From contig CAJXUN010000043.1 in NCBI GenBank assembly GCA_913061475.1, positions 1-37,639 of the forward strand: a stretch of DNA of 37,639 nt, given 5' to 3'. Positions 16,214 through 18,731 of this stretch are shown piece by piece. A model generated the notes under the pieces. That model ran no database searches, was not told the DNA's origin, and was given only the letters and a program-made list of their open reading frames with translations. Within the stretch, counting starts at the first letter, position 1, and each line of letters begins with the position of its first letter. Position numbers and translations under genes: made by a program. Source of the stretch: an uncultured Colwellia sp. Lineage in GTDB: Bacteria > Pseudomonadota > Gammaproteobacteria > Enterobacterales > Alteromonadaceae.

Positions 16214-18244
16214 ATGGAAACAGCAATGAATTCTCAACAAAAAGCGCTTTTTCAAGACAGCATCAAGCAAGGTATTCCTAGTGTATTACCAGAAGCTAAG
16301 CCATACCCTGTTGACGCTAACCGCGCCCCTAAACGTAAAGACATTCTATCTGTCGAAGAAAAGCAGTTAGCGGTTAGAAACGCGTTACGTTATTTTCCTA
16401 AAGCGTGGCATCAAGAACTAGCAACTGAATTCGCACAAGAATTGAAAGACTTTGGCCGTATTTACATGTATCGCTTTAAGCCTAGCTATCACATGAAAGC
16501 GCGTTCAATTTCCGACTACCCTGCACAGTGTCAGCAAGCGGCCGCGATTATGCTAATGGTGGAAAATAACTTAGATCCAGCTGTTGCACAGCATCCTGAA
16601 GAACTCATTACTTATGGTGGCAACGGCGCTGTGTTCCAAAACTGGGCACAGTACTTATTAGCCATGAAGTATTTAAGTGAGATGGAGAACGATCAAACCT
16701 TACATTTATACTCAGGTCACCCGATGGGCTTATTTCCATCATCGGAAGATGCGCCGCGGGTGGTTGTTACCAACGGTATGATGATCCCTAATTATTCTCA
16801 ACCTGATGACTGGGAAAAGTTTAACGCTTTAGGTGTTACTCAGTATGGCCAAATGACGGCCGGCTCGTTTATGTACATTGGCCCACAAGGCATTGTACAT
16901 GGCACCACTATTACGGTAATGAATGCTTTTCGTAAAGTACTTAGCAAAGGCGAAAGTCCACAAGGTAAAATTTTCCTTACGGCAGGTTTAGGCGGTATGA
17001 GTGGTGCTCAGCCGAAAGCGGGAAACATTGCAAACTGCGTAACCGTTTGTGCTGAAGTTAATGCAAAAGCGGCAACTAAGCGTCACCAACAAGGTTGGGT
17101 TGACGAGTTAATTGATAACATGGATGAGCTAGTTGCTCGTGTTAAATCAGCGCAAGCCGCTGAGGAAGTAGTATCAATTGCTTATATTGGTAACATTGTT
17201 GATGTCTGGGAAAGCTTTTATGAGCAAGATATTTATATTCATCTGGGCTCAGACCAAACGTCATTACATAACCCTTGGTCAGGCGGTTATTACCCCGTTG
17301 ATATTAGCTATGAAGAGTCAAATCGCTTAATTCGTGAAGAGCCAGAAGTATTCAAAACTAAAGTACAAGAAACATTAAAACGCCACGCAGCGGCTGTTAA
17401 CAAGCACACAGCACGTGGTACCTACTTCTTTGATTACGGCAATGCTTTCTTACTTGAAGCATCTCGCGCCGGCGGCGATGTCATGGCAGAAAATGGACTT
17501 GATTTTAAATACCCATCATACGTACAAGATATCTTGGGCCCAATGTGTTTCGACTATGGTTTTGGGCCATTTCGTTGGGTTTGTGCTTCAGGTAAACCAG
17601 AAGACTTAGATAAAACTGATGCCATCGCAGCTAGTGTTTTGAAAAAAATTATGCAAGAGTCGCCGGAAGAAATTCAGCAGCAAATGCAAGACAACATCAC
17701 TTGGATTGAAGACGCTAAGCAAAATAAGTTAGTGGTTGGCTCACAAGCCCGTATTCTTTATGCTGATGCGCAAGGCCGCATGGAAATTGCCAAAGCCTTT
17801 AATGATGCAATTAACAACGGTGAAATTGGCCCGGTAGTACTGGGGCGTGATCATCACGATGTTAGTGGTACAGATTCACCGTTCCGTGAAACGTCAAACA
17901 TCTATGACGGTAGCCGTTTTACGGCCGATATGGCGATTCACAACGTTATAGGTGACAGCTTCCGTGGTGCCACGTGGGTATCAATCCATAATGGCGGCGG
18001 CGTTGGTTGGGGTGAAGTAGTTAATGGTGGTTTTGGTATGTTACTTGACGGCTCAACAGCCGCAGAACGTCGTTTAAAATCAATGCTATTGTTTGATGTA
18101 AACAATGGTATCGCCCGTCGCAGTTGGGCCCGTAACTCTGAGGCCAACTTCGCTATTAAACGCGAAATGGCACGCACACCTAAACTTAAAGTAACTTTAG
18201 CAAACTTAGTTGAAAATGATATTTTAGATAACTTATCATTTTAA
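16214..18244 (+). CDS. hutU: urocanate hydratase HutU, long form
   Basis: HutU adds water to urocanate to give 4-imidazolone-5-propanoate using tightly bound NAD+. The start has a strong GGGGAG Shine-Dalgarno (16199-16204). Family motifs are intact: YGGNGAVFQNW, YSGHPMGLFPSS, MTAGSFMYIGPQGIVHGT, the NAD-binding GLGGMSGAQPKA, FGPFRWVCASG, and DHHDVSGTDSPFRETS. At 676 residues it is about 120 longer than the common bacterial enzyme (about 555). Its length and N-terminal region (EKQLAVRNALRYFP, RIYMYRF, NNLDPAVAQHPEELITYGGNG) resemble the animal UROC1 type as I recall it. It ends the hut operon; a MITE-like element begins 6 bp after its stop. Confidence 0.97.
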   Translation: METAMNSQQKALFQDSIKQGIPSVLPEAKPYPVDANRAPKRKDILSVEEKQLAVRNALRYFPKAWHQELATEFAQELKDFGRIYMYRFKPSYHMKARSISDYPAQCQQAAAIMLMVENNLDPAVAQHPEELITYGGNGAVFQNWAQYLLAMKYLSEMENDQTLHLYSGHPMGLFPSSEDAPRVVVTNGMMIPNYSQPDDWEKFNALGVTQYGQMTAGSFMYIGPQGIVHGTTITVMNAFRKVLSKGESPQGKIFLTAGLGGMSGAQPKAGNIANCVTVCAEVNAKAATKRHQQGWVDELIDNMDELVARVKSAQAAEEVVSIAYIGNIVDVWESFYEQDIYIHLGSDQTSLHNPWSGGYYPVDISYEESNRLIREEPEVFKTKVQETLKRHAAAVNKHTARGTYFFDYGNAFLLEASRAGGDVMAENGLDFKYPSYVQDILGPMCFDYGFGPFRWVCASGKPEDLDKTDAIAASVLKKIMQESPEEIQQQMQDNITWIEDAKQNKLVVGSQARILYADAQGRMEIAKAFNDAINNGEIGPVVLGRDHHDVSGTDSPFRETSNIYDGSRFTADMAIHNVIGDSFRGATWVSIHNGGGVGWGEVVNGGFGMLLDGSTAAERRLKSMLLFDVNNGIARRSWARNSEANFAIKREMARTPKLKVTLANLVENDILDNLSF

Positions 18245-18249
18245 AAGAC

Positions 18250-18528
18250 TAGGGTCTGTTGATCTTTCGCGGTTAAATTTTGTTCGGCTTTTTAAAGATA
18301 GTAAAGCGTTTTAATCGCGGCGAGTAGTGTGTAGCCTAGTCATTCTAAGCAAATACTGCTCAACAAAGAGTAAAACGCTTTTAGCCGAATCCTTCGGACA
18401 GCGTTTGTTGGTCATTTTTACGGCGTTATTACCTTTTTATGTGGAACAACCACATGACAAAGGCTCTGCCTTGTATAAATACCCAACAAACTGCTGCAAA
18501 AACAGTCTCAAAAGATCAACAGACCCTA
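18250..18528. mobile_element. MITE-like non-autonomous element in the hut 3' UTR
   Basis: Perfect terminal inverted repeats of 18 bp (TAGGGTCTGTTGATCTTT at 18250-18267, its reverse complement at 18511-18528) bound a 279-bp stretch with no transposase. The outermost TA at each end could be a TA target duplication, as used by Tc1/mariner-IS630 and some IS5-group elements. The interior is highly structured: AAGCGTTTTA (18304-18313) pairs with TAAAACGCTT (18371-18380), CCGAA/TTCGG (18385-18397) form a small hairpin, and ATGTGG/CCACAT (18439-18455) form another. The composition is more GC-rich than nearby intergenic DNA. The 73-codon open frame at 18327-18548 runs through the element and past its end, and is probably not a gene. 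Confidence 0.8.
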
Positions 18529-18592
18529 ACATTGAGCTAAAGCAATAGGGTTTTCTAGAAAAGTGCTAACTTAAAAAGTATTGGTTAACCAT

Positions 18593-18622
18593 AAAAAAAT
18601 CCGATTTAAGCCGGATTTTTTT
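18593..18622. terminator. bidirectional rho-independent terminator
   Basis: AAAAAAATCCG (18593-18603) pairs perfectly with CGGATTTTTTT (18612-18622) across an 8-nt loop, with T-runs in both directions. It would end the hut operon on the plus strand and the convergent SEC-C gene on the minus strand. Confidence 0.88.
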
Positions 18623-18731
18623 ATCTGCTTGTTTTGACAAATATCAAATTATACAAGACAAGATAAACGTTACGTTATGAGCACATAATGATATCTAAGC
18701 TGCTAAATAACGTCTATTGAAAGCAGCCAGA

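Follow-up and report, generated by a model that had tools for sequence, protein, structure and literature searches.

The 279-nt element at positions 18250–18528 of the window (the whole 37,639-nucleotide stretch of DNA analysed here, from an uncultured Colwellia sp.) is best explained as a MITE that would be mobilised in trans and that carries a selected fold, with a hairpin module that may work single-stranded, in one orientation, as RNA. We give this joint explanation a probability of roughly 0.6. The features on which the argument turns are as follows.

18250..18528, + strand (by match to the model): whole element; covariance model R1, match 1–268, E 4.4e-79
18250..18267, + strand: left terminal inverted repeat, TA outermost (sequence, 18-mer scan)
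18511..18528, − strand: right terminal inverted repeat, TA outermost (sequence, 18-mer scan)
18250..18251, no strand: left TA of the duplicated target pair; its partner TA is 18527–18528; a single TA stands at the empty site of relative G014
18283..18389, + strand: arm 1; hairpin module 18302–18384 right way up on +; arm model R2, E 8.7e-13
18390..18398, + strand: tiny central hairpin TCC-TTC-GGA (consensus fold)
18399..18496, − strand: arm 2; hairpin module 18405–18488 right way up on −; R2, E 4.2e-15
16214..18244, + strand: hutU (urocanase), host gene directly upstream, outside the element (urocanase domains)
18591..18624, + strand: terminator-like hairpin past the element, host sequence outside the element (sequence)

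The preliminary description had reported perfect 18-bp inverted ends with TA enclosing 279 bp without a transposase, placed after the hutU stop with the operon terminator beyond, and both the sequence and an ORF check bear this out. Apart from these repeats, the whole window contains no inverted pair of 18-mers spaced within 300 nt, and with a longest stop-free stretch of 71 codons the element encodes no transposase. Five bases separate the hutU stop (18244) from the element. The domains of the upstream genes (GntR/UTRA, aromatic amino acid lyase and urocanase) correspond to hutC, hutH and hutU, and from its place before the terminator the element is expected to form the tail of the hutCHU mRNA. 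The window copy is 279 nt long; the usual length of the element is about 268 nt.

A search of the host assembly with the 279-bp query returned 25 matches, eight of them over nearly the entire length; many lie at contig ends, as expected because a draft assembly breaks at repeats. The terminal 18-mer (up to three mismatches) occurs at 78 places in the host genome, against two for a reversed control; given these counts and the 25 matches, the element is not a product of chance. Other host copies comprise forms of 315–381 bp and a type of 269 bp that has GGGGCT ends, besides four end pairs 49–63 bp apart. Three host copies (L006, L007 and L008; 381, 315 and 380 bp) contain extra hairpin-like pieces of about 50 nt inside the arm or arms, by eye at matching places of one or both. 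Across the genus, sequence matches were found in 10 of 17 genomes, host included, and across the family the 18-mer with one free base was present in 44 of 118, host again included. Relatives also occur in 16 named plasmid or second-chromosome records, Vibrio, Pseudoalteromonas and Catenovulum among them; phage records contained no match to the element.

The site behind hutU was compared in the 17 genus genomes, three of which gave no hutU match. Element ends (up to three mismatches) were found within 400 bp of the hutU 3′ end in none of the 13 other genomes that were readable. The closest relative, G014, has AAAAGGCTAACATAT where the window has AAAAGACTA-element-ACATTG, with TA flanking the element on both sides; this is a clean empty site behind hutU with a single TA. 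A YTAR target fits the outer bases of 57 of 69 copies bounded by TA on each side; to obtain this set, copies lacking either TA, lying too close to a locus end or having repeated flanks were removed from 98 near-full copies. Judged by comparison with its relatives, 18250–18528 is a recent insertion.

An end scan of genome contigs yielded at least 116 stretches. Among the matches listed, the spacing of end pairs (up to three mismatches) peaked at 267 bp (11 pairs) and 268 bp (13 pairs), and three long pairs of 882, 883 and 887 bp were present in Pseudoalteromonas (L155), Rheinheimera (L179) and Vibrio metschnikovii (L101), respectively. The long pairs of L155 and L179 enclose a 253-aa transposase with PF13340 and PF01609, and these two intact proteins fit NF033580, of the IS5 family, with E 5e-77 and 1e-85; the longest frame in L101 is only 126 codons. 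A fourth long pair (L110, 6370–7652; 1283 bp) encloses, by eye, a 310-codon frame with an HNH-like C-terminus, which is not a transposase. Transposase relatives occur in 3 of the 17 genus genomes, and in one of them (G010) pieces of the gene adjoin the same ends. The host assembly gave no transposase match, an absence that is not proven given that the draft breaks at these repeats. The transposase gene with the same termini anticipated by the preliminary description was found in other genomes and not in the host draft. Because longer elements with matching ends encode an IS5-family transposase in the two intact cases, the element can be read as a MITE moved in trans; comparison shows what would be a non-autonomous transposon, mobilised by a transposase of the NF033580 type, with a YTAR target and TA duplication. 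The MITE reading of the preliminary description thus stands: the element is multi-copy, same-ended copies exist in the host and its relatives, the TA is duplicated, the site is empty in G014 and free of the ends in the 13 readable relatives, and longer IS5-type elements have matching ends. By eye, no transposase with the ends TAGGGCCTGTTAACAC was seen among the frames listed at 16 places in G252, G339, G211 and G296.

Derivation of the element from such an insertion sequence by internal deletion is not supported: R2 finds no module in L101, L155 or L179 (E up to 1), and the whole-element model R1 gives only a weak match in these loci, in L101 (E 0.088). Mini-elements consisting of ends only, 43–66 bp overall, were observed at L064 140–189, L065 124–186, L066 130–178, L067 108–160, L085 932–997, L114 6391–6444, L161 2951–2993 and L166 4462–4505. 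Their existence suggests that the body may not be needed for insertion, and its conservation would therefore call for another cause.

The preliminary description had noted several internal hairpins; hairpins are indeed present, and the wording understated what is one conserved two-armed fold. A sequence profile applied to 228 loci located 189 non-overlapping places, 98 of them near full length, and removal of copies at least 93% identical left a near set of 67. The consensus architecture is a terminal stem enclosing an arm, a tiny hairpin and a second arm, and most full-length relatives measure about 268 nt. Folded without their ends, the interiors of the 67 copies had mean z scores against shuffled sequences of −5.1 on the + strand and −4.9 on the − strand. 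Against 100 tree-simulated alignments, six column pairs covaried at E ≤0.05, and all six are complementary and lie within the consensus fold. In a structure-free MAFFT alignment of 46 sequences (45 of the near 67 with lengths of 255–272 nt, plus the window), 90.4% of 4374 cells were paired, versus 77.4% after shuffling and 38–43% after sliding, and 76 of 96 pairs had changed on both sides, all 11 helices containing such a pair. The sliding control flatters the fold because most sequences of the pairing test had also served to derive the structure, a fault from which the simulated null is free. Two results weigh against the fold: default RNAalifold scoring on the 67 copies retained only part of it, and unpaired columns were no better conserved than paired ones (0.97 versus 1.10 bits; 67 copies). 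Several internal-loop positions stay unpaired across copies.

The fold extends far beyond the host. Counting the host and some short matches, R1 hit 45 of 229 genomes sampled evenly across the class (E 0.001); across the phylum it hit 60 of 299 (E 1e-6), including families of other classes. The 30 best class-wide matches outside the host's family were all 266–270 nt long. Several matches confined to the core proved to sit at contig ends. From 57 loci of the class and phylum scans, a distant set of 46 was assembled, leaving out close relatives of the host, the second of a genus and one 193-nt copy; its mean pairwise identity was 0.55. In these 46 copies, aligned by fitting to the model, all four Watson–Crick types occur at 27 of 77 interior pairs. 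Folded singly and without the model, 40 of the 46 sequences formed a terminal stem bearing an arm, tiny hairpin and arm, against 3 of 138 interior-shuffled controls. A profile using sequence only detected most of 26 distant copies, four of them no better than E 0.02. TA is symmetric at both ends in 29 of the 46, with a YTAR fit in 24 of these, and the ends of the 29 fall into six sequence classes, with at least six overall. One type of relative also sits on named plasmids from Azotobacter, Pseudomonas aeruginosa and Halomonas. Taken together, covariation and model-free folding show a fold that is maintained by selection as the sequence, and even the ends, turn over. Because relatives keep the fold though their letters, even at the ends, have changed, the shape itself seems to matter.

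Rfam 15 at the gathering score gave no match in the window, nor over the copies in 20 loci. Permissive thresholds added only chance-level hits, FTX_2 on the element (E 4.7) and mir-87 on a single solitary module (E 0.12), besides a t44 match in L267 that was set aside because it falls outside the copy. In the open-access literature searched we found no account of the element, and searches with end-sequence strings returned nothing related. Open frames run through distant copies at L280–L282, L286 and L289, for example ...LRVAPEKAPLRVARRSFGVTKPLSS...; such frames probably give rise to spurious hypothetical proteins in annotation.

The two arms are versions of one unit. When arm 2 is reverse-complemented it aligns with arm 1 in a single register, giving a module of about 84 nt; with the two copies inverted, each strand presents one of them right way up. 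Forty hand-chosen modules (the two arms of each of 18 elements, plus four solitary modules) were paired in 95.7% of 1036 cells, versus 60.6% after shuffling, with a covariation of 0.910 versus 0.235, and their internal loop, CnAGGC opposite AAC, is nearly invariant. Among the 46 distant copies, CAAGGC is present in arm 1 of 35 and GCCTTG in arm 2 of 36, with both in 29; among the 67 near copies, the full CAAGGC is present in arm 1 of only 10 and GCCTTG in arm 2 of 43. The ratio of GU to AC read in the module orientation was 62:12, or 35:12 without the strongest pair. On the + strand of the near 67, arm 1 had 149 G–U and 47 A–C (a ratio of 3.17, where column make-up predicts 1.53), arm 2 had 67 and 82 (0.82, with 0.97 expected) and the ends had 40 and 55; the preference of arm 2 in this set, 82:67 in the module orientation, is weak. 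The sequences are related, so these counts are not independent. The weak arm 2 preference, the share of the arm 1 ratio that column make-up accounts for and the scarcity of the full CAAGGC in arm 1 of the near copies count against the explanation that we favour. This wobble asymmetry suggests that the module may matter as a single strand in one orientation.

In the window, R2 matched both arms and nothing else. It matched 32 of 36 chosen genomes, of which 28 had prior R1 matches and G014 prior sequence matches; among the seven chosen as element-free, it matched three, all of the host's genus, and none of the other four. Solitary modules are present in several loci. In G321, five modules lie behind four genes, two of them in tandem and all five antisense to the gene (L337 3011–3106, L338 2971–3054, L339 3004–3101, and L340 2950–3047 and 3055–3150). 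The four genes, too few for testing, encode a cyclic-nucleotide-binding protein, a UvrD-type helicase, chorismate synthase and GMP synthase; the nearest module ends 3–12 nt from the stop for three of them, and at the chorismate synthase gene the edge of the model overlaps the gene end. By eye, single modules also lie inside other ends, with one set shared by Shewanella copies (L112 1594–1677, L123 5798–5881 and L126 4132–4213) and a second such family in Pseudoalteromonas and Thalassotalea (L092 5625–5708 and 3600–3683, and L161 3575–3658).

In the joint explanation that we favour, a transposase of the IS5 family (NF033580 type) would act on the ends and insert the element at YTAR, duplicating the TA. 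The body would be two inverted copies of one hairpin module, joined by the paired ends and the tiny central hairpin. The wobble asymmetry and the conservation of the loop point to a module that would work folded, single-stranded and in one orientation, and to a trans-acting factor that would read the internal loop. The inverted pair would present one working module whichever strand is used, so that no orientation bias would be expected. Among 81 copies flanked by called genes on either side (from the 98, after dropping those near locus ends or with repeated flanks), 44 lie sense and 37 antisense to the neighbouring genes; this lack of bias fits action as RNA and as single-stranded DNA. With less confidence, we suggest an RNA form in which read-through would transcribe the copies, presumably including the one in the hutCHU tail, and a closed-ended, self-contained structure would protect or tether the transcript and make insertions tolerable.

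An RNA module shared among loci, raised in the preliminary description, is possible, and of two single-strand readings it is the one we favour; the excess of GU over AC would equally favour single-stranded DNA. In that alternative, which we regard as rather unlikely, the element is unchanged but its fold would act as DNA: much like a REP hairpin, the module would be recognised by a protein while exposed on the template of the lagging strand or during conjugation or repair; recognition would couple movement to replication, and the inverted pair would put a working module on whichever template strand. The strand-specific module and its inverted pairing fit such action as well as they fit RNA. 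Solitary and tandem modules exist, as they do for REPs, and the solitary modules of G321 lie just behind stops and antisense to the gene, and would therefore be upside down in that mRNA. However, no REP-type tag stands at a constant place beside the module: GTAG/CGTC was found within 36 nt upstream of 2 of 40 modules, at differing places, and within 40 nt upstream of none of 16 solitary modules. Moreover, double-stranded DNA is the accepted substrate of IS5-type transposition with TA duplication, and wobble tolerance is more typical of RNA.

Readings that deny the fold a role of its own, or tie it to hutCHU, fare worse. It is very unlikely that this is an ordinary MITE whose fold is a functionless by-product of template-switch correction between palindrome arms. 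Palindrome correction is a known mutational process that would yield two-sided changes, and some 'unpaired' positions do pair, 153/221 in 34% and 144/230 in 52% of copies. Plain correction is nevertheless weakened by arm mismatches that are kept (A–G at columns 54/110 in 48 of 67 copies and C–A at columns 61/102 in 58 of 67), because correction would pair them; the conservation of loop motifs across the phylum and a wobble asymmetry that tracks module orientation also stand against it. We consider it likewise very unlikely that the host selected a 3′-UTR element tuning the hutCHU mRNA. The element does lie between the stop codon and the terminator, but in none of the 13 genus relatives with a readable site were the ends found behind hutU, and the copies elsewhere, as counted above, show no orientation bias; the dedicated 3′-UTR module contemplated in the preliminary description is thus not supported by position.

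More tentatively than for the joint explanation, we propose that a mobile hairpin module may extend across the phylum in several kinds of small element, its conserved internal loop recognised by a widely shared protein that would be newly linked to it, with transposases and ends that come and go and a core that lasts. Its carriers would include the inverted pairs within different end classes and the solitary or tandem modules.

The element resembles the MITEs of IS5-family insertion sequences in being short, gene-free, multi-copy and intergenic, with a duplicated TA, a YTAR target and inverted ends that match an insertion sequence. Unlike them, it has a body that is missing from the insertion sequences (L101, L155 and L179) and a fold, loops and usual length that are kept across the phylum while the ends change. 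As far as the available text of three reports describes them, REPINs and REP sequences with TnpAREP (RAYT) share inverted pairs of one hairpin unit, solitary or tandem units and compensatory changes; REP dimers have also been reported within longer palindromes (PMC3116915, PMC8266576, PMC3733652), and REP hairpins act as single-stranded DNA (PMC8266576, PMC3116915). By contrast, the module here is about 84 nt long with a defined internal loop, where REPs, in the same accounts, measure 20–40 bp, and the element has a TA duplication and transposon-type ends. The bcr1 and bcr3 repeats of the Bacillus cereus group, in the portion of the report available, are MITE-like and often lie in transcripts, and bcr3 accompanies longer mRNA half-life; they belong to another phylum and are likened to the element by description alone (PMC3446304). 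Folding MITE transcripts and small RNAs born from MITEs have been described in prokaryotes; the folding example, in the text available, relies on mFold prediction from a single sequence, whereas the fold here shows covariation across genera (PMC10969869). Other stem–loop repeats and MITEs, seen in excerpts of their reports, are set beside the element by description only (PMC2267715, PMC4853749).

The element is widespread and matches no Rfam 15 family, and the annotation of many Pseudomonadota genomes could therefore improve. MITE bodies are usually regarded as debris. Here, a MITE body with a covarying fold is kept phylum-wide and its ends are exchanged, so that the conserved unit would seem to be the body and not the ends. 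An inverted pair of strand-specific modules would explain function in either orientation, and it offers a direct way to look for a putative missing binding factor.
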